Assembly (NCBI RefSeq): GCF_001907675.1
Contig: NZ_MPNT01000031.1
Location: 6,489 to 70,488, forward strand
Length of the DNA: 64,000 nt
Source: Mycobacterium paraffinicum
GTDB lineage: Bacteria > Actinomycetota > Actinomycetes > Mycobacteriales > Mycobacteriaceae
Direction of reading: 5' to 3'
Part shown: positions 15,243-60,379 of the stretch, piece by piece
Numbering within the stretch: the stretch's first letter is position 1
How the letters are laid out: the number at the start of each line of letters is the position of its first letter
Program-made: the position numbers and the translations under genes
Notes under the pieces: model-generated
Database searches by the model: none
Seen by the model: only the letters and a program-made list of their open reading frames with translations
What the model was told of the DNA's origin: nothing

Positions 15243-15316
15243 CGGGCTGTGGCGCAGTTTGGTAGCGCACTTGACTGGGGGTCAAGTGGTCGCAGGTTCA
15301 AATCCTGTCAGCCCGA
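15243..15316 (+). tRNA. tRNA-Pro (GGG anticodon)
   Basis: A 74-nt cloverleaf. The acceptor stem CGGGCTG pairs with CAGCCCG, the D arm is GCGC-AGTTTGGTA-GCGC, the anticodon stem CTTGA/TCAAG encloses the loop CTGGGGG (anticodon GGG, reading CCC/CCU), and the T arm has GGTTCAAATCC. The discriminator base is A; CCA is not encoded. Its 3' 19 bases are the left part of a 22-bp direct repeat whose second copy lies at 60,358, so the gene was used as an integration target and remained intact. Confidence 0.96.
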
Positions 15317-15319
15317 CAA
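15298..15319. repeat. attL-like direct repeat at the tRNA-Pro 3' end
   Basis: A 22-bp sequence, TCA followed by AATCCTGTCAGCCCGACAA, covers the T-arm and acceptor 3' half of tRNA-Pro and three bases beyond it. An identical copy is at 60358-60379; the flanking bases differ (T/A before, G/A after). An integrase remnant begins 44 bp inside. This is the classic geometry of tRNA-targeted integration by a tyrosine recombinase. Confidence 0.88.
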
Positions 15320-15362
15320 GAAGATACAGCCCCTGAGCTGCAGTGATGGCTTGGGCGTCCGC

Positions 15363-15557
15363 TCAGACGATCCGGAGCTTGGGACCATTTTGGGACCACA
15401 AGTGCTTCGACAGCAGCTCGTCAGCGCCTGCAACGGGCTGGCGATCTGGGTGCAGATACGGCTGCGTCGTGCTCAGGTCAGCGTGCCCGGAGATCTTCCG
15501 AAGGACATGAACGGGCACGCCGGCGTCAGCCATCCACGTCAGCCCCGTGTGCCGCAA
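15363..15557 (-). pseudogene. Tyrosine recombinase (integrase) C-terminal remnant
   Basis: Sixty-four codons match the C-terminal catalytic end of actinobacterial phage/island integrases: RHTGLTWMADAG (the HxxR box region, with the preceding HxL lost), LRKISGHADLSTTQPYLHP (the second catalytic H and the Y). The order is right but the catalytic core N-terminal to RHTG is absent: upstream codons on this strand run out of frame or into unrelated sequence. The remnant points toward the tRNA and lies 44 bp from the 22-bp repeat. It is therefore probably the broken integrase that inserted the island. Confidence 0.75.
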
Positions 15558-15954
15558 GCTGTCGCTTCAGCTCGCCTTGGCCGAGCTTGGTGACCCTCTC
15601 GTGCGCGCTCATCGCTTAGGCATTTCTTGGTATCAGCAGCCCTTCGTATGCAGTCTCCTGCGTGGCGGCCTCTCGAAAGTCTTGCCAGAAGCGACCACTG
15701 AGGAATGCAGGTAAGACGTCGGCATCGGCGCGACGCGGGGCATCGAACCCGCACAGATGTCAGTTATTGACATTTGGCACTATCTGCACTTTTATGGACA
15801 GGGTGAGCATCGCCCATTCTCGTTCAGCCGTGAAAAGGCGTGAGAGACTTCTAGATGACCCGACATTCTGGTGCCGGCCGCGCCACCGGAGATTGGCCGG
15901 CATCACTGGTGGCTGCTGCGCTACGACACGATTCACGCACAACGCAAGCACGTC
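15558..15954. other. Non-coding or degenerate stretch next to the integrase remnant
   Basis: I see no convincing gene here. Short open frames exist on both strands, none with family features. On the minus strand a 28-codon frame from 15610 reads out of phase into the integrase remnant, compatible with decay by small indels. The composition is mixed and lower in G+C than the core. Confidence 0.4.
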
Positions 15955-16569
15955 ATGACGGGCAGTGAGAAGGCGAGTCCCTCCTCTGCAATGACTGAGT
16001 CCGTCGACGTAGCGCCCGAACTGGGTCGATTCATGACCGCGATGCGCCGCCTACAAGACGCCGTCGTCTCGACCAGTCCGAGCAACGAATTGTGGAGCGA
16101 CGCGGCTGGTGAGATCGATGATCTTTGCGAACGCCTCGAACTTCATCGAGTGCCAGCGGGTTTCACGCTTGAAGGACGTGGAGCACATCTGCCCGGACTG
16201 GGCCATCCGCTTATGCCACCGTGGTTTATGACCGAATACGGTCCTGACGGAGTAACCATGGAGGGGCACTTCAGTCGGTTCCACGTGGGCAGCAACGACG
16301 TCGTCAACGGTGGTGTGATTCCGCTTCTGTACGACTGGCACTTCGGGATGATTGTCTCGGCGGCAGATCGTCGCAACAGCCGAACAGCCTACTTGCACAT
16401 CGAGTATCGTAAGATCACGCCCATCAATCAGCCGCTGACTTCCCGCGGACAGATAGACAAGCTCGACGGGCGAAAAGCTTTCGTCACAGCACAAATGACC
16501 GATGCCCAAGGCAATGTTCTATCTGAGGCTAGTGCCTTGATGATCCAATTAACGCCGGAACAACCATGA
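15955..16569 (+). CDS. Hotdog-fold PaaI-type acyl-CoA thioesterase
   Basis: About 204 residues from the ATG at 15955 (MTGSEKASPSS); ATG at 15991 is an alternative. The C-terminal 130 residues carry the hotdog pattern: FHVGSNDVVNGGVIPLLYDWHFG (the helix after the usual HGG, here NGG) and YLHIEYRKITPINQPLTSRGQI, followed by KAFVTAQMTDAQGNVLSEA. This is typical of PaaI-like thioesterases that hydrolyse aryl- or acyl-CoA. The N-terminal 60 residues have no recognisable domain. It is the first intact gene in the island and stands upstream of a CoA-transferase. Confidence 0.72.
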   Translation: MTGSEKASPSSAMTESVDVAPELGRFMTAMRRLQDAVVSTSPSNELWSDAAGEIDDLCERLELHRVPAGFTLEGRGAHLPGLGHPLMPPWFMTEYGPDGVTMEGHFSRFHVGSNDVVNGGVIPLLYDWHFGMIVSAADRRNSRTAYLHIEYRKITPINQPLTSRGQIDKLDGRKAFVTAQMTDAQGNVLSEASALMIQLTPEQP

Positions 16570-16788
16570 GCGCTCAACGATTTAGCCTTATGGAAGCGAA
16601 GCGCGCCGAACCTCGTATGGGCGGAATCGTTCTGCGCCGTGGTGCGCGATGACTTGGACACCCTCCTCGGTGAAGGTCCGCCGCGCACCCGTCAAGCAGC
16701 TCTCGAGGCCGTCCCGTTGGGCTGCGAGCCTGCGATCGTGGCGTAGGGGAGGAGCCCCGGCGTCACCGGCTGTGATGAGAGAGGCGCT

Positions 16789-18015
16789 TTGATCAAAGTA
16801 ATGGAGGGCGTTCGCGTCCTGGAGGTTGCTCAGTTCACGTTCGTTCCGGCAGCGGGAGCAATACTGGCTGACTGGGGTGCTGACGTCATCAAGGTGGAGC
16901 ACCCGTTACGAGGCGACACCCAACGCGGCTTCGTCTTTATGGGAGGCATTGAACTCGACGCAGATCGGCACCCACTGATCGAACACCCGAACCGCGGAAA
17001 ACGCAGCGTCGGCATCGACTTATCGACACCCGGGGGTCAGCACGTACTCTACGAACTGGCCAAGTCTTCGGATGTGTTCCTCACCAACTACATGCCCCAA
17101 GCCCGCCAGAAGAACAAGTTCGACCTTGAGCACATTCGCGCCGCAAACCCAGACATCATCTATGCCCGGGGCAGCGCGTACGGCGATAAGGGGCCCGAGC
17201 GGATGGTTGGCGGGTTCGACGGCACCGCATTCTGGACGCGCAGTGGGGTAGGCCACGCCTTGACTCCAGAGGCCTTGGGTGGCGCCTTGGGGCAGGGCAT
17301 TCCCGCGTTCGGCGATTCGATCGGCGGGATGAACATAGCAGGTGGCATCTCGGCGGCGCTGTTCCATCGCGAAAAGACCGGACAGGCAGTGGAACTCGAT
17401 GTTTCGCTGCTCAGCACGGCGTGGTGGTCTGCGGGCGCCAGCGTTACCCAGGGCATGGAAACCGGCGAGATCATGCGCTCGACGATGCCCGACGAAGTGG
17501 CACCGACTGTCAACCCGTTTCTTGGGAATTACCTGACCTCCGACGGCGGGACGATCAATCTCTGCATCGTCAGTCCGACCGGATACATCCATGATGCATT
17601 CGAGCACCTGGATCTACCCGAGCTGGCGAGCGACCCGCGCTTCTCGGACGTTCTACCTCTGATTGAAAATGCTGCGGAGGCGGCGCAATTGATCGCCGAG
17701 TCGATCGCCAAAAAGCCCTTCGCATACTGGCGTGAACGGCTGAAGACAATGAAGGGGCAGTGGGCGCCCTTCCAAAGTCTGCTGGACCTCGCCTCCGACG
17801 AACAGGCGATCGCCAACGACATGATCGTTGAGGTCGAGGCCGCAGATGGCGGAGCGCCATTCAAAGTCGTCCGTGGCCCGGTCCAGTTCAATCACGAACC
17901 ACTCGAAACTACCCGGGCGCCGCAGGCATCCGAACACACGGAGATCGTTTTGATGGAGCTCGGCATGGACTGGGATCAGATCGAGGTGCTGAAGAACTCC
18001 GGCGCGATCGCTTGA
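16789..18015 (+). CDS. Family III CoA-transferase (CaiB/formyl-CoA transferase type)
   Basis: A 408-residue enzyme moving CoA between carboxylates. N-terminal VLEVAQFTFVPAAGAILADWGADVIKVEHP is the family signature, and the catalytic aspartate is D176 in PAFGDSIGG, equivalent to the formyl-CoA transferase nucleophile. The start is drawn at TTG 16789; ATG at 16801 is possible. A 219-bp gap precedes it. It is convergent with the aldehyde dehydrogenase. It probably activates a carboxylic acid intermediate or recycles CoA from a product; the acceptor is unknown. Confidence 0.9.
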   Translation: MIKVMEGVRVLEVAQFTFVPAAGAILADWGADVIKVEHPLRGDTQRGFVFMGGIELDADRHPLIEHPNRGKRSVGIDLSTPGGQHVLYELAKSSDVFLTNYMPQARQKNKFDLEHIRAANPDIIYARGSAYGDKGPERMVGGFDGTAFWTRSGVGHALTPEALGGALGQGIPAFGDSIGGMNIAGGISAALFHREKTGQAVELDVSLLSTAWWSAGASVTQGMETGEIMRSTMPDEVAPTVNPFLGNYLTSDGGTINLCIVSPTGYIHDAFEHLDLPELASDPRFSDVLPLIENAAEAAQLIAESIAKKPFAYWRERLKTMKGQWAPFQSLLDLASDEQAIANDMIVEVEAADGGAPFKVVRGPVQFNHEPLETTRAPQASEHTEIVLMELGMDWDQIEVLKNSGAIA

Positions 18016-18050
18016 AGTGACGAAAAGCAGGGTCCGACAGGGATACTGAG

Positions 18051-18066
18051 CGAGGCTCCGGCCTCG
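18051..18066. terminator. Hairpin between convergent genes
   Basis: CGAGGC and GCCTCG form a perfect 6-bp stem around a TCCG loop, placed between the stop codons of the convergent CoA-transferase and aldehyde dehydrogenase genes. There is no T-tract, as is common for mycobacterial termination hairpins, so function is inferred from shape and position only. Confidence 0.35.
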
Positions 18067-18073
18067 ATGCAGG

Positions 18074-19552
18074 CTAGCGCTCGAATCTGTCGATCCGCCG
18101 CCGCGCCCGACGTCTTATCGATCGGACCCATAGATCGCCGGCGGCGACCTTTGCCCGTGAGAATGGCGGCGCGGCGATGCTCGTGATGCTGAAGGGCAAC
18201 TCGGATCCGACAACCGGGCGCTGGTGGCTGAAGGTATCAAAACCAGCTCTTCCGTGGTAGGCGCCCATGCCGCTGTGGCCCACGCCGCCGAACGGCACCT
18301 GCGGAAGGCTCATGTGCAGTGCGAAATCGTTTCGTGATACCGAGCCACTTCTAGTGGACGTCACGAAGTGCCGGAATTCCTCGTCGTCGGGGCCGTACCA
18401 GTATGCAATCAGAGGGGAGGGGCGCCGGTTGATGTAGTCGATGGCCTCGTCGTTGTGCTCGTAACCCATCACGACCAACACCGGTCCAAAGATTTCCTCA
18501 CAGGTGATGCGCATCGAGCTGTCGACGTTGGTCACCAGGGTCGGGGCAATGACGCGCCGCTCGCTGTCGGGCAGTTGTTCGTGCGGGGGCGCCACGGAGA
18601 TCACGTCTGCGCCCTTGCTCTGCGCATCCTCCACGAGAGCTATGACCCGCTCGTAGTTCGCGTCATTGATCGACGAGCACATGTCCTCGTTGCCGAGGAT
18701 CGACGGCAGGATGTCGCGAATGGCCGAAACGGTGGCACGGCAGAAGTTTTCGACGGCGTGGGAGGGGACTAGTACGTAGTCCGGGCAAAGACATGTCTGT
18801 CCGCCGTTGACCAGGCGGGAGCGCGCCACGCGGCTGGCCGAACGAGCGATATCAGCCTTCGGGCCGACTACGACGGGGTTCTTGCCGCCGAGTTCCAGCG
18901 TCACCGGAACGAGATTCGCTGATGCGGCACGATGAATGTGGCGACCCACCGCGGGCGAGCCGGTGAAAAATAGGTGGTCGAATGGCAGGCTGGCGAACTG
19001 TTGCGCTACCTCGACATCTCCGACGACGACGTCCAACTCGACAGCATCGAAATACTTGGGCGCGGTTTGGGCGAATGCGTCGGTAGTTCTTGGGGTCAAC
19101 TCTGACATCTTGATCATGACGCGGTTGCCTGCGGCGAATGCGTCGGCAGCGGGCAGGACGACGAGGTTGAGCGGGAAATTCCACGGGCCGATGATTCCGA
19201 CGACGCCTTTGGGAGTGGGTTGCACTTCGGCACTCAGTCCCAGGAATCTCGCAGCGGTGGCCGGTCGACGTGGACGCATCCAACGCGCGACGTTCTTGCG
19301 GGAGTATTCAATGGTCGAAGCGACGCCCACCATTTCGGTGAGGATCGAGGCGGTCCGGGAACGGGTGCCGAAGTCCGCGGCCAGCGCCGCCGCGAATGTC
19401 TCTGCGTGCTCGAACAAGAGCGCAAGCAGACGATCGAGGCGGTGACGCCGTACGTCCGCCGATGGTGCCCCCGCGGCTTGAAACGCCGCTTGCTGGGCGG
19501 CGAGCCGCTCGTCGAGAGAACTAGGGAGCGAAATTTGAGCCGCCTCTGTCAC
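18074..19552 (-). CDS. Aldehyde dehydrogenase, coniferyl-aldehyde-dehydrogenase-like
   Basis: NAD(P)-dependent aldehyde oxidation to the acid. The 492-residue protein has N125 (GPWNFPL), K148 (MIKMSEL), E220 (LELGGKNP) and the nucleophile cysteine C254 in GGQTCLCPDY. The short N-terminus and segments such as LPFDHLFFTGSPAVGR and PQVPFGGVGHSGMGAYHG fit the class 3/coniferyl aldehyde dehydrogenase branch. The C-terminus has an extra basic tail. GTG start at 19552 overlaps the acyl-CoA synthetase stop by 4 bases, so acid produced here could be activated directly by its operon partner. Confidence 0.9.
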   Translation of the reverse strand: MTEAAQISLPSSLDERLAAQQAAFQAAGAPSADVRRHRLDRLLALLFEHAETFAAALAADFGTRSRTASILTEMVGVASTIEYSRKNVARWMRPRRPATAARFLGLSAEVQPTPKGVVGIIGPWNFPLNLVVLPAADAFAAGNRVMIKMSELTPRTTDAFAQTAPKYFDAVELDVVVGDVEVAQQFASLPFDHLFFTGSPAVGRHIHRAASANLVPVTLELGGKNPVVVGPKADIARSASRVARSRLVNGGQTCLCPDYVLVPSHAVENFCRATVSAIRDILPSILGNEDMCSSINDANYERVIALVEDAQSKGADVISVAPPHEQLPDSERRVIAPTLVTNVDSSMRITCEEIFGPVLVVMGYEHNDEAIDYINRRPSPLIAYWYGPDDEEFRHFVTSTRSGSVSRNDFALHMSLPQVPFGGVGHSGMGAYHGRAGFDTFSHQRPVVGSELPFSITSIAAPPFSRAKVAAGDLWVRSIRRRARRRIDRFER

Positions 19553-21084
19553 GGTGTGCGGTCCCCTCTGGTATAGAGATTGCGTAAATCGGCTTTGCGC
19601 AACTTGCCAGCTGGGGTGCGAGGCAGTTCTTCGAGGAACTCAATCGAACGCGGGCACTTGAAATTTGCCAAACGTAGCCGCGCGAACTCGATGAGGTCCT
19701 CGGCCAGCTCGGGCGTTGGGTAGACAGTGGGCTTCAACTCGACGGCGGCTTTGACCTCTTCGCCGAATTCGGGATGTGGAATGCCGAATACGGCCACGTC
19801 CTGTACCGAAGGATGGAGTATCAGTACGTCTTCCGCCTCGCGCGGGTAAATGTTGACACCGCCGGAGATGATCGTGAATTCTTTGCGATCGGTGAGATAG
19901 AGGAAGCCGTCGCGATCGAGATACCCGATATCGCCCATGGTCGACGCCTCGCCATTGCGGCGTGACCGTCTGGTTTTTTCGGGATCACCCTTATACACGA
20001 AGCCGGGATCGCCGGTGAAATAGACGGTACCCGTTTGGCCTGGCTCGACAGCGCGGTCGGTCTCTTCGTCGATGATCTGGATCGGACCGGTCAGCGAGCG
20101 CCCCACCGAACCGGGGTGGGCAAGCCAGTCGGCCGAATCGATCATGGTGAAGCCGCCGGCGTCGGTTCCGCCGTAATACTCGACCAGTATGGGACCCCAC
20201 CAATCGATCATCTGCCGCTTGATCTCCGGTGGGCATGGCGCGCCGGCGTGCAGCGCCAGACGGTGCGTACTGAGATCGGCGGACTGCTTCTCGGTCGGCT
20301 CCAGAGCGAGCATCCGGACGAACATCGTGGGAACCCACTGGCTATGGGTGACTCGGTGCGATTCGATCGCGTTCAGCGCATCACGGGCGTCGAACTTCTC
20401 CATCAAAACGACGGTGGCTCCGACGCGGTGGGCAGCGATGGTGAAGTTCAATGGCGCAGCGTGGTACTGCGGTGCCGGGGACAAGTACACCGCCTGTTCG
20501 TCGATGCCGAAGAGGGCGGCCAGCCCCGACGACGCTGGGTCGCCGTCCCTGGGCGCGGAAGTGGGAAGCGGTCGGATCACTCCCTTGGGGCGTCCCGTGG
20601 TGCCCGAGGTGTACAACAACGTCGCACCGCTGAGCTCTTCGGCAGCGTCCACCGCATGTTCGAGGGCAGCTTCGTAGGGTTGGAATCCTGCGGTGATGTC
20701 ATCGGCCATGAGCCGGGTCTTCAGCGACGGAAGTGTGTCCCAGTCGATTTGAGTGATGAATTCTTGTTGTCTGACTGAGGTGCAAAGCGCCTTGGCCTCA
20801 CAGTCATTGAGGATGTAGGCGATCTCATCAGGCTTCAGATGCCAATTCACCGGCGTGACATATATCCCGGAACGCAAAGCTGCCCAGAGCATTTCGAAAT
20901 ATCGCAGATCGTTGTGCAGCAGGATGGCCATGTGGTCACCGCGAGTCAGTCCACGTGACCGAAAGAAGCTGGCCAAACGACGAGACCGCCGGTCCAGCTC
21001 GCCATAGGTGAGTGTGTCACGGGTAGAAGCCATTACGGCGGCCGGATGATCAGGTTTGATAGCCGCCCAATGCCCTGGATACAT
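19549..21084 (-). CDS. Acyl-CoA synthetase (FadD/AMP-binding family)
   Basis: A 511-residue adenylate-forming ligase that activates a carboxylic acid to its CoA thioester through an acyl-AMP. The nucleotide motif LLYTSGTTGRPKGV is at about residues 153-166, then YYGGTDAGG, the hinge motif GDIGYLDRDGFLYLTDRKEFTI, and the C-terminal catalytic lysine in RTPAGKLRK. It is first in a two-gene operon with the aldehyde dehydrogenase. ATG at 21084. The pairing suggests aldehyde to acid to acyl-CoA processing. Substrate (fatty, aromatic or terpenoid acid) cannot be told. Confidence 0.92.
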   Translation of the reverse strand: MYPGHWAAIKPDHPAAVMASTRDTLTYGELDRRSRRLASFFRSRGLTRGDHMAILLHNDLRYFEMLWAALRSGIYVTPVNWHLKPDEIAYILNDCEAKALCTSVRQQEFITQIDWDTLPSLKTRLMADDITAGFQPYEAALEHAVDAAEELSGATLLYTSGTTGRPKGVIRPLPTSAPRDGDPASSGLAALFGIDEQAVYLSPAPQYHAAPLNFTIAAHRVGATVVLMEKFDARDALNAIESHRVTHSQWVPTMFVRMLALEPTEKQSADLSTHRLALHAGAPCPPEIKRQMIDWWGPILVEYYGGTDAGGFTMIDSADWLAHPGSVGRSLTGPIQIIDEETDRAVEPGQTGTVYFTGDPGFVYKGDPEKTRRSRRNGEASTMGDIGYLDRDGFLYLTDRKEFTIISGGVNIYPREAEDVLILHPSVQDVAVFGIPHPEFGEEVKAAVELKPTVYPTPELAEDLIEFARLRLANFKCPRSIEFLEELPRTPAGKLRKADLRNLYTRGDRTP

Positions 21085-21276
21085 TCAACCCATCCGGTGA
21101 TTGCGTCGAGGGCGATGCGGCCGACGCCGACCGCGGAACCCCGTTGTCCTGTGAGACCGGCTCGACCTTATGGCGTGTGGTGAAATTTGTCAATAACTGA
21201 CAGACCGCCCGGCGCCATGGCAAGCCAGGCCGATCGGCGTGCTGTGAAGAGCGGATATGCCACAGACTCGGGCTGC

Positions 21277-21942
21277 TCAGCGCCGGCTGGAAGGGCCCTT
21301 TCGGGTCCGCGTGACCTTGGTGGCGCCACTGCGGCGAACCGCCCGTCTGGGAACCGCAACCTTGCCCTTGCCGAATGCGGCGCAGACACGATCGACAATG
21401 TCCTGCAACGCGACGAGGTCGAATGACTCCTCGGAGACGAACCACCGGCGAAACGCAGCGCTCGTACTTGACACCAGCACTGAGGCGAAGACCGATGCCT
21501 CGAGTGACGGATCCTCACCCCAGTCCTCGGCAATGGCTGCCGTGAGGCTTTCTTGGTAGCCCTCTCCGATACGCAGGAATTCGGCCAGCAATGGCGGAGT
21601 GTCGAAGATGGCGCGCATCCGTGTGCGCATCTCCGGCGTGTCCATCAGGGGCAGTGTTTCGTTGCGGAAGTTTCGCCAGCAAGAAACAGCATCGGTGTCG
21701 CGGTCGACCAAGAGTGCGCGGAATGCTTGCAGCATGTCATGTTCGGCGGCGAGAGCGAGCGCTTCTTTGGTATTGAAGTACCGCAGAATCGTACGGACCG
21801 ACATGACGGAGGCGTCGGCGATTTGCTCTAGTGTCACCGCGTCATAGCCGTGCTCGCGGAACATCATGTTCGCCACGTGGACCACTTGGCGCTTGGTGTC
21901 CTGCTTTTTGCGTTCCCGCAAGCTCACCCGAGGTTCGGCCAC
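21277..21942 (-). CDS. TetR/AcrR family regulator
   Basis: A 221-residue regulator from GTG 21942 (VAEPRVSLRERKK); the frame extends upstream to 21996 but into less protein-like sequence. The N-terminal helix-turn-helix shows AVTLEQIADASVMSVRTILRYF at about 35-56. The C-terminal ligand domain is not specific. It ends in a very basic tail (RRAVRRSGATKVTRTRKG). It sits upstream of the acyl-CoA synthetase/aldehyde dehydrogenase operon on the same strand, 192 bp away, and may control it or the amidohydrolase gene behind it. Confidence 0.88.
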   Translation of the reverse strand: MAEPRVSLRERKKQDTKRQVVHVANMMFREHGYDAVTLEQIADASVMSVRTILRYFNTKEALALAAEHDMLQAFRALLVDRDTDAVSCWRNFRNETLPLMDTPEMRTRMRAIFDTPPLLAEFLRIGEGYQESLTAAIAEDWGEDPSLEASVFASVLVSSTSAAFRRWFVSEESFDLVALQDIVDRVCAAFGKGKVAVPRRAVRRSGATKVTRTRKGPSSRR

Positions 21943-22184
21943 GCGATCATCGTAGCAGGCTGAAACTACCGAACTATGCTTTTCGCAACCCCCCATGCGC
22001 CAGATCCGCTCGACGCACGGCTGTCGGATGATTGTGTGTAATCCCGTTCTTTGTACCGATTCTCGCCGCGGACCTGCAGTGCGTCGGATAGATCTTACGC
22101 AAGCTTGAACTGCGCCCGGGCGCGTGCGCCCGCCGGGTTAGTTACGCTATCTTCGCTTCCGCGGCCGAATGTGTAGTCGTCGAT

Positions 22185-23477
22185 TCAGTCTTTGTTGCCG
22201 GTGAGTTCCTTGGCCCTGGCGTTGAAATCGGACACGCTTGGCCCGTCGTGCTGGTGCTTTGACAGTGCTTGAATCGAAACGTCATGGCCCTCGGCGGCTT
22301 TGCGCAACGCGCCGACGGTGGCTTGCGCCTCGGTGATGTGGCTGAACGGGTCGAAGGAGTACCAGCGCATCGCGTTCTGGTACGACATCTTCTCGATCTC
22401 GTCGTCCGGAACGTTGTTCAGCGCCAACACATCCCACAGTTCCTCGGGGGCGCTCGGCCACATCGAGTCGCTGTGCGGATAGTCGGCTTCCCAGCAGATG
22501 TTGTCGATGCCGATCTCATTGCGCAATGCCACCCCGACCTTGTCGCTGATGAAGCAGGTCAAGAAGTGCTCGCGGAACACCTCGCTGGGCAGCTTGCCCT
22601 TGAAGTCCTGGTGCGTCCACGCCGAGTGCATCTCATAGGTGCGGTCGGCGCGCTCGAGGAAGTACGGGATCCATCCGGTTCCGCCCTCGGACAGCGCGAT
22701 CTTCAGGTCGGGGTATTGCTTGATCGGCTTGGACCATAACAGGTCCGCCGCGGCCTGCACGATATTCATCGGCTGAAGGGTGATCATCACGTCCATCGGC
22801 GCGTCGGGTGCCGTGATCGCGAGCCGGCCCGAGGAGCCGATGTGGACGTTCATTACCGTGTTGGTGTCGCACAACGCATCCCACAGTGGCTTCCAGTAAT
22901 CGTCATGGAAGCTGGGGTAACCCATCGCGGCCGGATTCTCGGTGAAGGTCAGCGCGTGCACGCCTTTCTTGGCCACCCGCCGCACTTCCTTGGCGCACTC
23001 CTCGGCGTCCCAGATCACCGGGATCGCCATCGGGATGAATCGTGCCGGGTACGCCCCGCACCACTCGTCGATGTGCCAGTCGTTATAGGCCTGCACCAAC
23101 GCGATCGAGAAATCGCGGTCCTCGGTGGCGAACAGCCGCCCGGCGAAGCCGGGGAACGACGGGAAGCAGATCGACGCCAGGATCCCTCCCGCGTTCATGT
23201 CTTTGATCCGCTCGTCGACGTTGTAACAGCCGGGCCGGATCTCATCGAGCCCCTGCGGCTCCAGGCCGTATTCCTCTTTCGGACGACCGGCGACCGCGTT
23301 CAGCGCCACGTTCGGGATGATCGTGTCGCGGAACTGCCAGGTGTCCGAGCCGTCCTCGTTGTGCACCAGGTGCGGCGCATCGTCGATGTACTTCTTCGGC
23401 AGGTGGTTCCTGAACATGTCGGGTGGCTCGACGGTGTGGTCATCGACGCTGATCAGAATCATGTCGTCTTTGTTCAC
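22185..23477 (-). CDS. Amidohydrolase-family (PF04909) metal-dependent hydrolase or decarboxylase
   Basis: A 430-residue TIM-barrel protein of the ACMSD/amidohydrolase-2 family. The first metal motif is ISVDDHTVEPP (D-x-H) at about residues 9-19, and the final conserved aspartate is in CWEADYPHSDSMWP near residue 330. Members hydrolyse C-C or C-N bonds or decarboxylate ring acids. GTG at 23477 is chosen because GAGAGGACCGGGCA precedes it; the frame is open further upstream to 23666. It stands alone, 188 bp from the TetR gene, with a 400-bp upstream region. It is a distant paralogue of the pair at 41.9-44.2 kb. Confidence 0.85.
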   Translation of the reverse strand: MNKDDMILISVDDHTVEPPDMFRNHLPKKYIDDAPHLVHNEDGSDTWQFRDTIIPNVALNAVAGRPKEEYGLEPQGLDEIRPGCYNVDERIKDMNAGGILASICFPSFPGFAGRLFATEDRDFSIALVQAYNDWHIDEWCGAYPARFIPMAIPVIWDAEECAKEVRRVAKKGVHALTFTENPAAMGYPSFHDDYWKPLWDALCDTNTVMNVHIGSSGRLAITAPDAPMDVMITLQPMNIVQAAADLLWSKPIKQYPDLKIALSEGGTGWIPYFLERADRTYEMHSAWTHQDFKGKLPSEVFREHFLTCFISDKVGVALRNEIGIDNICWEADYPHSDSMWPSAPEELWDVLALNNVPDDEIEKMSYQNAMRWYSFDPFSHITEAQATVGALRKAAEGHDVSIQALSKHQHDGPSVSDFNARAKELTGNKD

Positions 23478-51948: not shown

Positions 51949-52525
51949 GCAAAAGCAACCAATCTGCTTACGCCGTCATGTGACTGTCGGTGCACCGTTC
52001 GTTGTCGAGTCATCGGTGAGCAAGCCAAGAACGGGTCTTCACCGCCTCAGGTTCTCGGGGTGTCGCGGCGAAATCAATACGCGGAGGCAAAGATGCGAAC
52101 CTAGCGCTGCGCCGAGCGGCCTCGTTTTTCGCAGTCAGGGCCGCTGACCATTGCTTACCGATGCGATTGACAGTGCCCTTTTCTCATCGCGACAATTTCG
52201 CGGGAGTGCTTTCGGCCGCGTACCCGTGGCAGTCATCACGAGTGGCGGCAGAGGTGATGAGGTCGCGGGCTATCGGAGGTTTCAACCGCCGACGTGATAG
52301 TGCTGGAGGCTCCGCCGGCTGGCTGATCGCCGCGGCTCACGCCACCGCGTCAGACAATTTTGGGGGCTATCTCTCTCAATGTGAGGAGCCGGAACCCAGT
52401 TTCCTCAAGCAACGCGCTGGTCCTGGGCACTCGGTGAGAGTTGGTGGGGTCAACTGCTGGCGCCGGCGTTTTCAACATGGGTTCCGAATATTGATTCTGT
52501 CTCGGCAGACCCCCACCCTGAATCG
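51949..52525. promoter_or_regulatory. Divergent intergenic region between two P450 genes (577 bp)
   Basis: A 122-codon plus-strand frame (52161-52529) overlaps the next P450 start but has no family features and ends within it, so I treat it as a shadow. Promoters for both P450s must lie here; no clear -35/-10 pair or strong inverted repeat was found. Confidence 0.4.
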
Positions 52526-53740
52526 GTGACAGTTCTCGCTGAACCGAGCAGCTTCTTCGGCGCCGAGGCGTTGCAGGATCCGTATCCCCTCTACGACCGG
52601 ATGCGATCAGAGAGCCCGGTGCACCGCATCGGTGACTCGGAGTTCTATGCCGTGTGCGGGTGGGACGCGGTCATCGAAGCTGTCGAGCGGGTCGAAGATT
52701 TCTCCTCGAACCTGACCGCGACGATGGTGTACCAGGAGGACGGATCCGTAGGGCCGTTTCCCATGATGGAGGCGGGCAACCCGGGCCACGCCTTGGCCAC
52801 CGCCGACGATCCCGTGCACGCGGTACACCGAAAGATTCTGCTGCCACATTTGTCGGCAAAGCGCGTTCGCGTCATCGAAGATTTCGCCTGTGACGTCGCG
52901 CAAGAACTGTGGGATCAGAATGTGCATGACGGACACATCGAATGGATGAGCGCGATCGCCAACCGGCTCCCCATGATGGTCGTCGCCAAGCTGCTAGGTC
53001 TGCCCGCAACCGACGTCGACGATCTCATCCGGCTGGGATTTGCGACCACCACCCTGCTCGACGGCGTCGTCACGCAAGCTCAATTGGAGGAAGCCGGGAT
53101 CGCGGCCTTCGAGTTGGCGAACTACGTCATGCAGCATTTCGAGAAGGCAACCGGCAGTGATGAGCCCGGACTGATATCGGATATGGCGGCGCGTTACTCA
53201 TCCGGCGAGGTCGACCAGGCCGTGGCCATGAACATCATGCTCACTCTGTTCAGCGCGGCCGGTGAATCGACTGCCTCACTGCTAGGCAGCGCCGCCTGGA
53301 TCCTCGCCGAACGCCCGCAGATCCAGAAGCAACTGCGCGACCGCCCAGAGTTGTTGAACGCCTTTATTGAAGAGGCGTTGCGCTACGAACCTCCGTTTCG
53401 CGGTCACTACCGACACGTCTGGCGGGACACCGTACTTGGTGGCGTTGCGGTGCCGGCGAATTCACACCTGCTGTTGATGTGGGGTGCGGCCAACCGCGAT
53501 CCGGCGCACTTCGAGGCGCCGGACGAATTTCGACTCGACCGGACCGGCGCGAAGGGGCACGTGACCTTCGGCAAAGGCGCGCACTTCTGCATCGGCGCGG
53601 CGCTGGCGCGGCTGGAAGCCCAGATCGTGTTCCGGACCGTACTGGAGCGCACCACCTGGATTGAAGCGGTCGAGGTGGGGGAGTGGCTGCCGAGTGTTCT
53701 GGTGCGGCGACGCAAGCGCCTGCAGCTAACGGTGCGCTAG
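52526..53740 (+). CDS. Cytochrome P450
   Basis: A 404-residue P450 with N-terminal FFGAEALQDPYPLYDRMR, I-helix SAAGESTA (glutamate and serine in place of the common D/E-T), ExxR in EEALRYE and the heme cysteine in FGKGAHFCIGAALAR. The N-terminus and AGES helix recall mycobacterial CYP144, though this is only an impression. GTG at 52526. No ferredoxin is adjacent. It stands alone with long flanking non-coding DNA. Confidence 0.92.
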   Translation: MTVLAEPSSFFGAEALQDPYPLYDRMRSESPVHRIGDSEFYAVCGWDAVIEAVERVEDFSSNLTATMVYQEDGSVGPFPMMEAGNPGHALATADDPVHAVHRKILLPHLSAKRVRVIEDFACDVAQELWDQNVHDGHIEWMSAIANRLPMMVVAKLLGLPATDVDDLIRLGFATTTLLDGVVTQAQLEEAGIAAFELANYVMQHFEKATGSDEPGLISDMAARYSSGEVDQAVAMNIMLTLFSAAGESTASLLGSAAWILAERPQIQKQLRDRPELLNAFIEEALRYEPPFRGHYRHVWRDTVLGGVAVPANSHLLLMWGAANRDPAHFEAPDEFRLDRTGAKGHVTFGKGAHFCIGAALARLEAQIVFRTVLERTTWIEAVEVGEWLPSVLVRRRKRLQLTVR

Positions 53741-54364
53741 CCGTCGCCGAATGGTTATGCGCCAACGTCTTTGACCGACTTCTCTGACCGATTACAGCAA
53801 ACCACGTGATAGCACAGCGACTTTCGTAACCCCCGGTGGTGTCGTTACCCGTTTCGATGGACGGTGTTACACCGACCATCGCGTCGGGCTTCCTTCAAGA
53901 CCGGATGGGCGACGACCGCACAAGCTACCGCGACGCGTCGGCAGAAGACGACATTCCGAAGCATCGCATACCTACTAACATCTGTCAGCTCGTCGCGAGG
54001 CGACCGATACCAGGCGGTTGTGGCTCTCTCACCAGGACGCCACAGGAGTGCACTCCAACCTTCAACGCCAGTCGGGCCTCGGCGGTCACTGCGCCCAAAA
54101 GCGCGTCACTGCTGCGCGCGTCAACCGACGACATCGGCAAAAAGAACATGAAGGCCGCCGGCCCGCGCGCGGGCCATCACCGCATCCTCGGGCTTGTGGG
54201 TCGGCGGCGGCGATCGCACCCCGATTATTGCTTTTCAAGCAAGACTGCTTTGCCTTTCGCGCGACTTCCTGCCCAGCGTTATCGGTTAGCGTGGAAGTGA
54301 TAGCGGCCCCGGGGCGGGCACCGTCCCACCGCAAACCTTTGGCCCCTCAGAGGAAAATCTTCAG
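53741..54364. other. Non-coding stretch (624 bp)
   Basis: I see no supported gene. Frames on the plus strand overlap one another and have basic, low-complexity composition. The last 15 bp hold GAGGAAAATCTTCAG, the ribosome site for the ATG at 54365. A deleted gene is possible given the length, but nothing recognisable remains. Confidence 0.35.
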
Positions 54365-54676
54365 ATGACATACCACCTGATTGTTCAGTTCGTCGTGCCC
54401 GCAGACAGGCATAACCACTTCATCGAGCAGGCTCAACGTGATGCCGAAGAGTCACTCCGGAATGAACCTGGCACCCTTGCGTTCTCGGTTCTCCGGGACG
54501 AGCGCGACCCGCAGCGCTTTTTCCTCGATGAGGTGTATGAGGACGAAGCGGCATTCGAATACCACACCAAACAGGCGGCATTTAATAACTTCATCGAGGC
54601 GGTGCAGCCCTACGCTGACGGCCCTACTTTCTTGGTGCAAGGTCTTTCCCTGGCGCCCAGCGCAATAACCAGATGA
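54365..54676 (+). CDS. ABM-domain protein, quinol monooxygenase-like
   Basis: A 103-residue ferredoxin-like-fold protein of the antibiotic biosynthesis monooxygenase family: IVQFVVPADRHNHFIEQAQRDAEESL, then EPGTLAFSVLRDERDPQRFFLDEVYEDEAAFEYHTKQ, matching YgiN-type quinol monooxygenases and similar small dimers that oxidise polyphenols without cofactors. ATG at 54365 follows GAGGAAAATCTTCAG. It is 104 bp before a secreted DUF296 protein, possibly in one transcript. Confidence 0.83.
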   Translation: MTYHLIVQFVVPADRHNHFIEQAQRDAEESLRNEPGTLAFSVLRDERDPQRFFLDEVYEDEAAFEYHTKQAAFNNFIEAVQPYADGPTFLVQGLSLAPSAITR

Positions 54677-54780
54677 GGGGCGGTGACGGTGGGCCGGAAA
54701 GTCAGGCACCGTAACGTCGTTCACCCCTGAGTCGCCGCGGCAGCGCGGCGGCTCGACGTCCCAAAAGGAAGCCGCCTCGC

Positions 54781-55371
54781 ATGTCAACCGAAATCGCTTC
54801 ACGCCGGTCGTTTCTCGTTGCTTCGGGAGCCATCGCCGGGGGATCAGCACTCGTTTCCAGTTGCGCCCGCGGCTACGGCGACAGTCGTGCCGACGCGAAC
54901 GCGCAATATCTCAGCGCCGCCGAGGCTGGGCCGCAGGGAACGGCGCCGTATGCCCGCACCCACCGTCTGTCGGGGGGCGCCTACATGCTGGTGCTCCGTG
55001 ACGGAGACGAACTGTTCACCGCGCTAAACGATTTCGCTAACGCCTATCACATCACCGCGGCTAGCTTCAGCGCCATCGGAGCGCTTCGAGATGTCCGAGT
55101 CGGTTGGTATGACCTACACCGGAAGAAGTACAAGGTGATCACTGTCGACGGTCAGGTCGAGGCGGCGTCCATCATTGGCGATATCGGCACCTTCGGTGGC
55201 AAGCCCGTGGTGCACACCCACCTGGTGGTGGCCAGGCAGGATGCGAGCACGTCGGCCGGACACCTGTTACACGCCGTAACATCGCCCACCATCGAAGTGT
55301 TCATCCATACTTATCCAGAGACCCTGGCGAAGAAAGCTGATGACGCTACCGGGCTCACTCTGTTCGACTGA
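54781..55371 (+). CDS. Exported PPC/DUF296-domain lipoprotein
   Basis: A 196-residue protein beginning with a twin-arginine signal (ASRRSFLVASGA, residues 6-17) and a lipobox-like SSC at about residues 26-28, so it is probably exported folded and anchored to lipid. The rest is a PPC/DUF296 domain: YMLVLRDGDELFTALNDFA, FSAIGALRDVRVGWYD, and the metal-binding motif PVVHTHLVVARQDAS with a histidine in AGHLLHA. Prokaryotic DUF296 proteins are normally cytoplasmic and of unknown function; the export signals are unusual. ATG at 54781 after AAAGGAAGCC. Confidence 0.8.
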   Translation: MSTEIASRRSFLVASGAIAGGSALVSSCARGYGDSRADANAQYLSAAEAGPQGTAPYARTHRLSGGAYMLVLRDGDELFTALNDFANAYHITAASFSAIGALRDVRVGWYDLHRKKYKVITVDGQVEAASIIGDIGTFGGKPVVHTHLVVARQDASTSAGHLLHAVTSPTIEVFIHTYPETLAKKADDATGLTLFD

Positions 55372-55398
55372 CCTTCCCGTAAGCACGCCGTCGGCGCA

Positions 55399-56310
55399 TT
55401 AGCTATCAGACACCGACCCGATCCGAGGTCCTAGCCTGCCGGCCAAGTGGGCGATGAGTTCGCGTACACGGCGGGGCAAACGGGCGTCGGCAGAGTACAC
55501 CGCGTAGATGTCGGCGCTCGGTGTCGGGATGTGCGGCAGAACCTGAACCAATACGCCGTCCTGCAGCAGCGGACCGATGTGCCAGCTCGAGCGCATGATC
55601 AGACCGCGGCCTTCAATGCACCACTGCGTCGTCACCTCGCCGTCATTGCAGGTGAGATTTCCACTCACCTTGACAGCGGTCTGATCATTGTCGGTTCCGA
55701 AACGCCACAACGCGAAGTCGCCGTCGTCCTGACGCAGCACGATGCAGTTGTGCTGCTGGAGGTCCTTCACGTGGCGCGGCGTTCCGTATCGGGCAAGGTA
55801 ATTAGGGCTCGCGCAGACCACGCGGCGATTCAAACCCAGTCGTCTGATGGCCAGCAACGAGTCCTGCACCCTTCCCACGTGAACACCAAGATCGAAGGTC
55901 GTCCCGGGGATATTAAGAGGCAGCGGAGAAAGCTCAAGCTCGACCTGGACGCGCGGATACTGTTCGAGGAACTCAGCCACCAGCGGGCCGATGTGGTGGC
56001 GGCCCAGGCCCAGACTGGCGTGCACGCGAATCCGACCAGAAAGCTCGCCGCGTTCGGCGATGGAATCCTCCAACTCAATGAGCCCGTTGGTGATCGTTGC
56101 CGCACCGGCGGCATAGCGTTCCCCCTCTGAGGTGAGCGTCAGACGGCGCGTGGTCCGTTCGATCAGGCGCACGTTGAGGCGACGCTCGATACCCGCCAGC
56201 CGCTTGCTGACCGACGAAACGGACAAACCCAACTCTCGGGCGGCCTGAGTCAAGCTCGGTGATTTTGCCAGTACGTCGAAGAACAGGACGTCGTCGGCAG
56301 ATGAAGTCAT
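55399..56310 (-). CDS. LysR family transcriptional regulator
   Basis: A 303-residue LysR regulator: the N-terminal winged HTH FFDVLAKSPSLTQAARELGLSVSSVSKRLAGIERRLNVRLIERTTR at about 9-53, then a periplasmic-binding-protein-like effector domain (DLGVHVGRVQDSLLAIRRLG, HNCIVLRQDDGDFALW). ATG at 56310 (MTSSADDVLFF) is chosen. Convergent with the DUF296 gene (27 bp). LysR proteins usually control a divergent neighbour; upstream lies a cupin gene in the same direction, so the target is unclear. Confidence 0.9.
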   Translation of the reverse strand: MTSSADDVLFFDVLAKSPSLTQAARELGLSVSSVSKRLAGIERRLNVRLIERTTRRLTLTSEGERYAAGAATITNGLIELEDSIAERGELSGRIRVHASLGLGRHHIGPLVAEFLEQYPRVQVELELSPLPLNIPGTTFDLGVHVGRVQDSLLAIRRLGLNRRVVCASPNYLARYGTPRHVKDLQQHNCIVLRQDDGDFALWRFGTDNDQTAVKVSGNLTCNDGEVTTQWCIEGRGLIMRSSWHIGPLLQDGVLVQVLPHIPTPSADIYAVYSADARLPRRVRELIAHLAGRLGPRIGSVSDS

Positions 56311-56583
56311 GTGACCCCCACTTCGGTGCACGTTGCCCAAGATTTTGTGTAGCGCTGATGCGTCGGTACTCGTGCACCAGCGCTTCGGTAGTTACGAATG
56401 GGCTTGGCCGGCATCACGTGGTCGGGTACGAAACGCCTCAACCTCCTCGTCGAGTTCAGCGGCCACCACTGAAACTTCGGACTTCGAAGCCCTGTCAGGC
56501 CAAGGGATTTGATCAGACGCTGCACCCGCCGCGCCGCTGCGCGCAGGAGATAGCCGGCCGCCACGGCGCCGCTCAATGCCCGC

Positions 56584-57015
56584 TTACTGGTTGTTGCGGG
56601 CCATGAATGCCTTCGCGTCGCCGTCGGCGGGATCGACGAACACGATGTCAGCCGGATGGCGACGGGGGACGTCAACCGATAGCACCACGAAGGGATGGTT
56701 GGTGATCGTCGGAAAGCCATGGACCTGGCGACGTGCGAATCGCAGGAACGTGCCGGGTCCCGCGTTGCTTTCCTCGCCGGCAAGGTGGAAGACGCCCTCG
56801 CCGCTTATGACATATAAGAACTCGTCGCAGTCGTTGTGATAGTGCAGCGGCAGGGTCCGATAGATCCTGAAGATCCTGCTACTGGCTTCGGGAAAGTCGC
56901 TGAAGTAGACGTCGGTCAACATTGAGTCTGATGTCTCAGGAAGTTGGCGGAACTCGTGGAATACGTCGAAAATTTGTCGCTTGTTGTCTGTCTGCGGAAT
57001 GTACTCAGCACTCAT
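56584..57015 (-). CDS. Cupin-domain protein
   Basis: A 143-residue single cupin. Motif 1 reads PLHYHNDCDEFLYVISGEGVF (H, H, E) and motif 2 GTFLRFARRQVHGFPT (H), giving a complete metal-binding set. The overall form is close to small dioxygenase or isomerase cupins of the 3-hydroxyanthranilate-dioxygenase type, but a sensor or storage role cannot be excluded. ATG at 57015 (MSAEYIPQ). The 273 bp between it and LysR contain nothing convincing. Confidence 0.82.
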   Translation of the reverse strand: MSAEYIPQTDNKRQIFDVFHEFRQLPETSDSMLTDVYFSDFPEASSRIFRIYRTLPLHYHNDCDEFLYVISGEGVFHLAGEESNAGPGTFLRFARRQVHGFPTITNHPFVVLSVDVPRRHPADIVFVDPADGDAKAFMARNNQ

Positions 57016-57412
57016 AGTTGGGAGGCTACCAAGGGGAGGACAAGGCTGCCGCTCAGCCGTTTTCGATGGAGCTAGTCGAGCGGCAAACATCGCGAGACGC
57101 GAGATAACTTGGGCGCAGGATTTGTCGCTACATCGCGTCGGTGGGCAACGTAAATCGCCGCAGGAGCCGCTCGCGGAAGGCGCCGGGCGGACCCTCAAGC
57201 AAGGGCGAAATTCCACCCGCGGCGGATTGCCCGTTCGCGGCGAGGACTCGGTAGCCGCCCGCCAACTGACGCCCAGGCCGATGAACCTCGGTGATCGGCA
57301 CGCGGATGCGGCGGCGGCGCGTTGGCCGCAAGCCCTGGCCCCAGCGGGCGGGCCGCGGCGCTGCATAATTGCGAACGTTGGGTTCAGTTACTTGCTTTTG
57401 TAAGGGGTTGAG
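57016..57412. other. Divergent intergenic region, with a coding-like fragment
   Basis: The region separates the cupin (minus) from a TetR gene (plus). On the minus strand 57128-57331 is a 67-codon frame, strongly G/C-biased at third positions, reading TEVHRPGRQLAGGYRV and ISPLLEGPPGAFRERLLRRF before its stop. It has no clear start or family and may be a gene remnant. The last 50 bp before the TetR gene are A+T-rich and probably its promoter. Confidence 0.35.
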
Positions 57413-58000
57413 GTGGCTGAGGATCCGAGGTCTCGTCCGGGGCGGCCACGCAGCGAGCAGTCCCGGTCGGCGGTTCTGCGCGCCACGTCGGAGTTGATCA
57501 ACGAGGTAGGCCTGCGTGCGATGACGACCGATCAGATCGCCACCCGTGCCGGCGTGAGCAAGGCGACGATCTACAAGTGGTGGCCGAACAAATATGCGGT
57601 TGCGGTCGAGGCGTTCCTGTCGGAAATGGCGAAGGAGTCACCGGACCCGGACACCGGGTCGGCGGAGGAAGACTTCCGCCGCGCACTGCGGGGCCTGATT
57701 CGCTTCTACCGCAGCAAAAGTGGCCGAGCGTATGCCCAACTCATCGGGGAAGCGCAGTTCGATCCCCAGATCGGCAAGGAGCTGCGGGAGCACCTTGTCG
57801 GTTCCCGACGGGCATTGGTGCGGGCGATATTGGACCGCGGTGTCGCGCGGGGGGAGCTGCGGCACGACGTGGATTCAGAGGTCGCGATCGACCTGATCTT
57901 CGGGCCCGCGATGTACCGGCTCGTCGCCGGTCACGCTCCGCTGGACCGTAACGCCGCCGACGCGATCGTGGACGCGGCGATGCGCGGCCTGGCGCGCTGA
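57413..58000 (+). CDS. TetR/AcrR family regulator
   Basis: A 195-residue regulator: basic N-terminus (RSRPGRPRSEQ), HTH MTTDQIATRAGVSKATIYKWW at about 37-57, and a C-terminal domain of the TetR_C type found with RPGRPRS-start repressors. It lies 93 bp before the aquaporin gene on the same strand, and a near-perfect 18-bp palindrome sits between them, so it probably controls the aquaporin and perhaps itself. GTG start at 57413 after AAGGGGTTGAG. Confidence 0.9.
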   Translation: MAEDPRSRPGRPRSEQSRSAVLRATSELINEVGLRAMTTDQIATRAGVSKATIYKWWPNKYAVAVEAFLSEMAKESPDPDTGSAEEDFRRALRGLIRFYRSKSGRAYAQLIGEAQFDPQIGKELREHLVGSRRALVRAILDRGVARGELRHDVDSEVAIDLIFGPAMYRLVAGHAPLDRNAADAIVDAAMRGLAR

Positions 58001-58060
58001 GACTGACGTCACAGATCCCACGGGATCGAAACCGCAAAGCCGCGCGTAGTCTCAATTTGG

Positions 58061-58078
58061 AAACTAGACGTTCAGTTT
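58061..58078. promoter_or_regulatory. Candidate TetR operator before the aquaporin gene
   Basis: AAACTAGACGTTCAGTTT is an imperfect palindrome (14 of 18 positions symmetric; arms AAACT/AGTTT, centre ACGT), of the AACTGNACGTNCAGTT type often bound by TetR repressors. It ends 15 bp before the aquaporin ATG, so binding would block transcription or initiation. Confidence 0.55.
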
Positions 58079-58081
58079 TAG

Positions 58082-58783
<702 letters not shown>

Positions 58784-58936
58784 CGGCGACCGATGATGGG
58801 CTAAATACGTAGGCGGCCAGCGGATTTCGTGGGCCTGCCGGCGGCCGCCAGTCTCCTGCTGACGATGAGAGAGCGCCGGAAACCTCTAGAAAAGGCGCGC
58901 AACGCAATGTGCGATCAAAAATGAGGTAGTACAGCA

Positions 58937-59099
58937 ATGGATTTCGCGATATTTTTGCCGGAAATCAACTCCGCGCGAATATATATCCGCCCCGGGCTCG
59001 GGGCCGTTGCTGGCCGCCGCGGCGGCCTGGGACGAGCTGGCCGCCGGATGTAAACCGGCGGCGGCCTCACTTCGGCGCGCAAACCGGGTGCCCGTATGA
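58937..59099 (+). pseudogene. PPE family gene remnant (frameshifted N-terminus)
   Basis: From ATG 58937 the frame reads MDFAIFLPEINSARIYIRP, the PPE opening (family form MDFxxLPPEINSARMYxGPG). Within the CCCC run near 58991 one base is in excess, after which the PPE sequence continues in the next frame as GSGPLLAAAAAWDELAAG, then diverges and stops at 59097-59099. Both halves are unmistakable PPE motifs. The remainder of the domain (about 130 residues) is missing. A related paired PE gene is not seen. This supports a mycobacterial origin for the right end of the segment. Confidence 0.8.
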
Positions 59100-59156
59100 G
59101 ACGTACCGCCATGTCCACCGCAAATGCATTCATGTTGGCAAGGCACAATTGCGCTA

Positions 59157-60254
59157 ATGACCACTCCCCAGGAGCCCTCGCGCGGCGATTCGCCAGGATG
59201 GAATCGCCCCTCCGAGCCGCCTGGCCGCCGCAGGGATTCGGTACCTCCAACACCGCAACCGGCGCCTCCATCGGGATCTCCGACCCGACAGATTCCGCAA
59301 GGCGGTCGGCGATATCCGCCATCGCCGCCACCGAACCGACTACAGCCGCGCGGCCGTCCGCCCACTCCGCAGCCGTATCCGCCGGGGCGCCCACCGACCC
59401 CGCGCCAGCGTCAGCCCGGCCCCCCACCAAGACAGCCGGAGCCGGCCACCACTCAGCTACCTACCCAGCAGCCGGGGAGCGAGGGGCCGGCCCGAAGCCG
59501 ACGCCGCTTGTTGGGCAACCGGCGGTCGATGGCTCTGGTCCTGGCAACGGTGCTGGTGGTCATCCTGGCCGCCGTGGTCGGTGCCGAGCTGATCCTGCGC
59601 CACCTGGTCGGCAGCAAGGTGGCGAGCGCAGTGGCGTGCGAGGTGCAGGACAGCGCCACCGTGTCGTTTGCCTCCATGCCGCCAATGCTGTGGCAGTACT
59701 TCAGTGGCCAGTATCCGGACATCTCTGTGCAGACCGCCGGCAATCAGGTGCGTAGCGCCAAGGGCATGAAAGTCAACATCGATATCAAGGACCTCCGCCT
59801 GAACGACACCAACAACTCCAAGGGCACCATCGGCGCGCTCAACGGCACCATCACCTGGTCATCCCAAGGCATCAAGGAATCGATTCAGGACGCCATCCCG
59901 GTGCTGGGCAGTTTCGTGACCAGCAAAGTCACCACCAACCCCAGCGACGGAACCATCCAATTGAAGGGCCTCCTCGACAGCGCCACCGTCAAGCCGCAGA
60001 TCGCCAACAACGGGCTGTCACTTCAGGTGGTCAACCTGACCGCATTGGGCTCCAACATGTCGACGGAGAAGGTGCAGACGAATCTCGACGATCTCACGTC
60101 CAAAGCGACCCAGAACTATCCGTTGGGCATTCACGCCGACAACGTGAGGGTCACGGATGCCGGGGTGGAGGCTACGTTTTCCACCACCAACGCAACCATC
60201 CCGGCGGCATCGTCGTCGTCGCAGACCGGTCAGGACTGCTTCAGCGGAGTCTGA
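59157..60254 (+). CDS. Membrane-anchored DUF2993 (LmeA-like) protein with proline-rich tail
   Basis: A 365-residue protein: a long proline/arginine-rich cytoplasmic N-terminus (about 1-120), one transmembrane helix (about 125-150, MALVLATVLVVILAAVVGAEL), then a DUF2993 domain (about 160-350; segments such as VSFASMPPMLWQYFSGQYPDI and DIKDLRLNDTNNSKG). The domain is found in LmeA, which supports lipomannan elongation, but this protein adds the proline-rich tail. ATG at 59157 (MTTPQEPSRG) is chosen. It is the last gene before the right 22-bp repeat and has host-like composition. Confidence 0.8.
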   Translation: MTTPQEPSRGDSPGWNRPSEPPGRRRDSVPPTPQPAPPSGSPTRQIPQGGRRYPPSPPPNRLQPRGRPPTPQPYPPGRPPTPRQRQPGPPPRQPEPATTQLPTQQPGSEGPARSRRRLLGNRRSMALVLATVLVVILAAVVGAELILRHLVGSKVASAVACEVQDSATVSFASMPPMLWQYFSGQYPDISVQTAGNQVRSAKGMKVNIDIKDLRLNDTNNSKGTIGALNGTITWSSQGIKESIQDAIPVLGSFVTSKVTTNPSDGTIQLKGLLDSATVKPQIANNGLSLQVVNLTALGSNMSTEKVQTNLDDLTSKATQNYPLGIHADNVRVTDAGVEATFSTTNATIPAASSSSQTGQDCFSGV

Positions 60255-60357
60255 TCGGCAGGGCACGTCACGATGGGCGTGGGTGGAAGATTGCCGGAGG
60301 ACGGTCGGCTCGAGCCGGGGGAGCGTGGCCGGCCCGGAAACGAATACTTCCACTTGA

Positions 60358-60379
60358 TCAAATCCTGTCAGCCCGACAA
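60358..60379. repeat. attR-like direct repeat of the tRNA-Pro 3' end
   Basis: This is a perfect 22-bp copy of 15298-15319, embedded here in sequence that is not a tRNA: the bases upstream do not form the rest of a cloverleaf. It marks the right junction of the island. Beyond it a small conserved-type gene and a DUF4189 gene follow. Confidence 0.88.

Follow-up and report, generated by a model that had tools for sequence, protein, structure and literature searches.

How a large block of degradation genes came to lie directly behind a tRNA gene is the question raised by a 64,000-nt stretch of the Mycobacterium paraffinicum genome (contig NZ_MPNT01000031.1, positions 6,489 to 70,488 of the forward strand; hereafter the window). 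In this stretch, the gene for tRNA-Pro(GGG) is followed 45 kb downstream by a second copy of its own 3′-end, and an initial annotation had taken everything between the two copies for one catabolic island with a perfect pair of attachment (att) sites. Our analysis partly supports that annotation: the place and the kind of process were right, but the unity of the island was overstated. The locus is read here, with good confidence, as a decayed and composite genomic island at an integration hot spot used across the genus. Site-specific integration at tRNA-Pro is well supported, and the approximately 42 kb of foreign-looking degradation genes looks built up stepwise rather than received as one clean unit.

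The tRNA-Pro 3′-end and its copies in the genus

The single tRNA gene found by ARAGORN in the window is tRNA-Pro(GGG). The 22-mer TCAAATCCTGTCAGCCCGACAA is present in the window as two exact copies of the same orientation, at the positions first reported (Table 1), with no third copy on either strand. It is made of 20 nt of the tRNA gene, as bounded by ARAGORN, and 2 nt downstream, rather than of 19 tRNA bases with three more on each side as had been described. A chance origin of the repeat is ruled out, because none of 60 simulated 64-kb sequences (first-order Markov) matched the tRNA (plus 13 nt) exactly over more than 14 nt, and the rest of the real window does so over at most 11 nt. A tRNA 3′-end with a flanking direct repeat, one of the marks of a tRNA genomic island, is thus present.

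Base composition, another such mark, also differs from the flanks. GC content is 0.691 before the tRNA, 0.618 at 15871–57366, 0.649 at 57367–60357 and 0.667 after the distal repeat, and GC at third codon positions (GC3; open reading frames (ORFs) of at least 100 aa picked by codon-position score) is 0.877, 0.734, 0.799, and 0.853 for the same intervals. The change is abrupt at the left edge and graded at the right edge. Together with the catabolic gene content seen by Pfam, these values bear out the earlier statement that the interior is unlike its surroundings, and the view that the catabolic stretch is foreign to the tRNA-Pro locus is supported.

Copies of the tRNA end are common in the genus. 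In a sample of 148 Mycobacterium genomes, the tRNA query (E 1e-3) matched all 148, although the best match is weak (E 1e-15 to 1e-10) and possibly another tRNA in G008, G010, G013, G030, G073, G105, and G128. The exact 19-mer of the tRNA end is found in at least two copies in 44 genomes (including G078, whose second copy is a full-length tRNA-like match), in one copy in 96 and in none of the other 8; the reversed 19-mer, used as a control, is found in 0 of the 148. Among the matches listed, all 38 extra copies on the same contig as the tRNA, from 31 genomes, are located downstream on the same strand as the tRNA, at distances of 1.3–168 kb (median, 10.7 kb); this set excludes the G078 match and copies on other contigs and includes G040, whose own tRNA lacks the exact 19-mer. 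The earlier proposal that the tRNA 3′-end is the likely crossover site is supported. In G136, four tRNA-end copies, including the tRNA itself, are spread over 168 kb (C4:943083–1110957), perhaps as a very long insertion array. Searches of a limited set of open-access papers listed none whose title or abstract dealt with an island or hot spot at tRNA-Pro in mycobacteria.

The integrase remnant and its intact relatives

The integrase remnant that had been noticed at the tRNA end is real (Table 1), and a closely related intact gene exists at the same site elsewhere. Its 64 residues are 92% identical to residues 347–410 of an integrase (410 aa from the chosen start) encoded at locus L018, from the Mycobacterium metagenome-assembled genome bog_759. 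There, tRNA-Pro is followed by the intact integrase gene, a gene for an HTH_17 protein, RepSA of the pSAM2 type (PF20199, E 8e-132), and FtsK_SpoIIIE (E 1.4e-11), and the end of the integrase gene is 46 bp from the tRNA end, as in the window. This gene set matches that described for actinomycete integrative and conjugative elements (AICEs) in PMC3218068. According to that survey, the Mycobacterium AICEs found there all encode serine recombinases except Mkan24688, so that the tyrosine-integrase family at tRNA-Pro is less usual among them. Further members are found at other loci. M. gastri (L027) has an integrase 81% identical to that of L018 plus a part of RepSA, and M. montefiorense (L033, 13486–13956) has a second 3′ remnant, corresponding to residues 254–410, near tRNA-Pro. 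In M. gastri, the DNA between tRNA-Pro and the AICE-type integrase gene (L027:13530–14495) encodes a SIR2-like protein whose matches are ThsA-like (PADLOC E 3e-31); the hot spot may thus hold a defence gene as well.

The island thus resembles pSAM2-like AICEs in integration at a tRNA 3′-end, in the C-terminus of its tyrosine integrase, and in the orientation and spacing of the integrase gene relative to the tRNA. It differs from them in its cargo, about 40 kb of catabolic genes, and in the absence of a detectable element core. By tblastn against the window, only the last 64 of 410 integrase residues are present; the L018 HTH_17 protein, standing for an excisionase, and RepSA have no match at E 1; and for an FtsK/TraB-type translocase there is only a chance-level match (E 0.34) outside the island. 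Between the repeats, Pfam families were matched (E 1e-3 or better) by 41 of the 43 ORFs scanned. The integrase remnant is the only mobile-element gene among them, and RepSA has no match there either; two weak transposon/resolvase helix-turn-helix matches fall on TetR proteins. This agrees with the initial annotation, in which no phage or conjugation genes were visible. Neither a complete integrase gene nor a gene for an excisionase, for replication or for transfer was detected between the repeats, and the island would therefore be immobile unless an integrase acts on it from elsewhere.

Phages use the same address. The 22-mer is present in viral contigs at four loci, and in Gilesvirus Daegal a 46-nt stretch identical to the tRNA end is located 105 bp from the phage integrase gene; according to PMC11551767, a Giles vector integrates near the 3′-end of an M. 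smegmatis tRNA-Pro. It might therefore be asked whether the site and its repeats go back to a temperate phage, of the Giles type or another, with the catabolic genes arriving later. The use of the tRNA-Pro 3′-end as attachment site, with its 46-nt match, would fit such an origin, which we nevertheless regard as quite improbable. At E 1e-5 or better, a search with the remnant hit a single phage record, 37% identical; with the full-length L018 integrase there were 611 phage matches, all below 60% identity (27% for the best 12 of the 611). No phage structural family, and no virion or packaging gene, was found by Pfam in the 43 ORFs, and in a PHROGs search of eight window ORFs only the integrase matched. 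Moreover, the intact relative of the scar at L018 adjoins RepSA and FtsK genes, not virion genes. That the integrase scar belonged to a Giles-like phage is ruled out by these phage searches, which place the remnant outside the Giles family.

The right junction

The distal repeat has a counterpart at the same chromosomal junction in one relative. At locus L085 (genome G006), a 44-nt copy of the tRNA end with three mismatches is found 3449 nt after the tRNA and is followed by the same right flank as in the window. The cargo between is different, 3.4 kb with genes for a short-chain dehydrogenase/reductase (SDR), a TetR regulator and a P450, and the two distal repeats differ at a single base (T to A) over the 22 aligned nt. 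The view that 60358–60379 is an att scar at the chromosomal junction is supported by sequence comparison, best by this one genome. The claim of site-specific integration is well supported, and that of a single 45-kb unit is not, since the right 3 kb is resident at the site in relatives and a piece of the island occurs beside the same tRNA at locus L001 (see below). In the relatives compared, the content after the tRNA is different, a further mark of a tRNA genomic island.

A 44-nt query, with up to nine mismatches allowed, was run against 52 loci with an intact tRNA (some representing the same place twice). Sixteen extra copies were found in 14 of the 52 loci, 14 of them with 0–5 mismatches; at nine mismatches in 44 the search is blind to short copies, that of the window included. 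The exact run up to ...CCCG is 33–44 nt in 11 copies, 25 nt at L017, 19 and 25 nt in the two copies at L087, and 18 nt in the window; it is also 18 nt at L114 and L116, owing to one changed base in long copies. The pair that had been called perfect therefore includes one of the shortest distal copies seen. The exact pattern without T before TCAAATCC occurs in 2 of the 148 genomes, in both cases in long copies with one base changed, and short runs are also present at L017 and twice at L087. A distinct class of short att sites is not established. The seven bases preceding the distal copy, CACTTGA, recur in the tRNA's anticodon stem; this may reflect an internal deletion, or chance.

Several points weigh against the reading of the locus as a decayed, composite island at an integration hot spot. 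The shared right junction is seen in L085 only. The right edge varies among relatives, because the island piece at L001 meets the right flank at 60390 without an att copy and the similarity to the right flank begins only at 60699–60700 in L006, L086, and L095. Comparison with relatives had been proposed as a way to find the empty site, and none of the loci compared joins the tRNA directly to 60380, so that a precise empty site, as would mark a tRNA genomic island, was not found among them; among the gaps noted from tRNA to flank, the shortest are 1.45 kb in G064 (to 62475), 2.4 kb in G002 (to 60699), and 3.5 kb in G006 (to 60420). Most other att copies are longer than the distal repeat, and no extra att copy is found between the integrase scar and the catabolic genes, where a tandem array would predict one. 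Finally, a viral contig (L106) that carries a relative of the L018 element, with an integrase 64% identical to the L018 type and relatives of the HTH_17, RepSA, and FtsK proteins, has a long tRNA-Pro-like stretch, from the anticodon onward, beside its integrase gene; no att pair was found in this contig. Because the distal repeat is short and the L106 stretch is long, the 22-bp copy is not established as the partner of the integrase scar.

Composite content and the origin of the catabolic block

The interval between the repeats is made of parts with different distributions (Table 1). The right 3 kb holds genes that are residents of the hot spot: the TetR–aquaporin pair is found at L005 and L016, and LmeA at L005, L006, and L007, in orders different from that of the window, and no match to the catabolic block is present at these loci within the fetched stretch, 5 to 9 kb past the tRNA.

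Table 1. Features of the window from tRNA-Pro to the right flank (blank strand, none given)
Feature	Position	Strand	Basis and remarks
tRNA-Pro(GGG)	15243–15317	+	Integration site, 3′-end intact; ARAGORN, genus search
Proximal 22-bp repeat, attL side	15298–15319	+	Identical to 60358–60379
attL arm with TGAGCTGC	15320–15362	+	Common to L018 and L027, similar in L017, L022, and L035; comparison of downstream arms
3′ remnant (64 codons) of tyrosine integrase gene, pSAM2-like AICE type	15363–15557	-	PF00589 E 1.2e-8; PHROG integrase E 7e-11
Catabolic genes: thioesterase-like, CoA-transferase III, aldehyde dehydrogenase, acyl-CoA synthetase, TetR, amidohydrolase, SDRs, enoyl-CoA hydratase	15871–27900		Pfam
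Catabolic core: SDR, TetR, 2-oxoacid dehydrogenase E1 plus lipoyl protein, enoyl-CoA hydratases, P450s, Rieske oxygenase, ferredoxin, NuoF-like protein, amidohydrolase pair, acyl-CoA dehydrogenase halves, SDR, esterase-like hydrolase	27145–50581		Pfam
Segment adjoining tRNA-Pro also in M. scrofulaceum E3039 (L001)	48002–52422		94% identical, blastn
P450, ABM monooxygenase, PCC-domain protein, LysR regulator, cupin	52526–57366		Pfam
TetR and aquaporin module	57413–58783	+	Pfam; at hot spot in L005 and L016 (blastn)
LmeA-like protein gene	59124–60254	+	PF11209 E 4e-20; directly after tRNA-Pro in L005, L006, and L007 (blastn)
Distal 22-bp repeat, putative truncated attR	60358–60379	+	Aligns with 44-nt att copy of L085 at same junction
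Right chromosomal flank: DUF4189, hydrolase, DUF2510	60390–63200		Pfam; near tRNA-Pro in relatives

To the left, from 15.9 to 57.4 kb, Pfam finds four P450s, one Rieske oxygenase, one ferredoxin, and one NuoF-like protein, along with three enoyl-CoA hydratases, acyl-CoA dehydrogenase halves, an acyl-CoA synthetase, and a family III CoA-transferase; three amidohydrolases, SDRs, a 2-oxoacid dehydrogenase E1 with its lipoyl protein, four TetR regulators, and one LysR regulator complete the inventory. These genes suggest an oxidative, CoA-linked degradation. No substrate can be named, because for ten proteins of the block no NCBIfam row reached its curated cut-off (for one protein, among the best 25 of 102 rows). 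At 46140–47669, the N-terminal and C-terminal domains of acyl-CoA dehydrogenase are matched separately by two adjacent ORFs.

Parts of the block are found in other mycobacteria. In M. scrofulaceum E3039, which is also the closest named relative of the left flank among the fetched loci (92.8% over 11.4 kb), the 4.4-kb segment lies between tRNA-Pro and the right flank, and is the longest and closest match among those listed for the genus sample. In genome G044, counterparts of 13 proteins from 27.1–50.6 kb, 63–92% identical, are encoded within 16 kb (C1:516161–532459), in the same order except that a middle block of three is reversed; unlike the island, this cluster is more compact and is away from tRNA-Pro, 2.7 Mb from that of its own genome (at 3.25 Mb). 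Long DNA matches to parts of the island (E 1e-150) occur in 117 and 118 of the 148 genomes, 72–89% identical among the matches listed, barring the 94% of M. scrofulaceum E3039. All plasmid matches of the Rieske oxygenase are below 60% identity. In view of these modules in relatives, the G044 cluster and the widespread matches, the catabolic genes seem to be of mycobacterial stock and to have been brought to the tRNA-Pro address. A mycobacterial mobile element with xenobiotic-degradation genes, ICEMyc226 of Mycolicibacterium, is described in PMC7478629; unlike it, the island has no type IV secretion conjugative module among the ORFs scanned.

The block might have arrived in other ways. One is a single capture, in which one pSAM2-like element brought the catabolic cargo to tRNA-Pro and later lost its core genes, the 22-bp repeats being its attL and attR. 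The integrase scar at the expected end and distance, and one att copy at the far end with none inside, are what such an event would leave, but we hold it to be unlikely: the right 3 kb consists of hot-spot residents, the distal repeat is truncated, a piece of the island occurs at the same site at L001, and no rep, xis or tra remnant was found by tblastn in the window.

Somewhat less doubtful, although still unlikely, is entry of the catabolic genes by homologous recombination or another route, in which case the att pair would only be left over from an earlier insertion of a different kind. In G044, much of the catabolic core is clustered far from tRNA-Pro, and the order of modules varies among L005, L016, and the window, as this route would allow; but the block starts no more than 0.6 kb from the tRNA, and its address is common to the L001 piece and the P450–SDR cargo of L085.

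A more speculative possibility, no better than the single capture in our estimate, is that tRNA-Pro(GGG) serves as a long-lived exchange bay, where integrase-less cargo islets lying between tRNA-end copies come and go and are exchanged among species, with integrases supplied in trans by AICEs and prophages of the same site. The catabolic genes of the window and the P450–SDR cargo of L085 would be examples, as would the MmpS-type and MMPL genes (PF05423, PF03176) at L017:11972–15495, between tRNA-Pro and the short tRNA-end copy, where no relative of the L018 integrase was found.

In the preferred reading, a decayed and composite island, tyrosine integrases of several elements would recombine their own attP with the 3′ part of tRNA-Pro(GGG), each integration restoring the tRNA and leaving a copy of its 3′-end at the far junction. 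At least one occupant would have been a pSAM2-like AICE, of which only the 3′-end of the integrase gene is left beside the tRNA, the rest probably lost by deletion. The catabolic block would have come between this scar and the residents TetR–aquaporin and LmeA, with the distal junction marked by a truncated attR.

The finding ties a degradation block to one chromosomal address that is common to phages and conjugative elements across the genus, and it offers a fixed place to look for how mycobacteria acquire catabolic genes. It also indicates that tRNA-flanked repeats, taken alone, may overstate how cleanly an island arrived.

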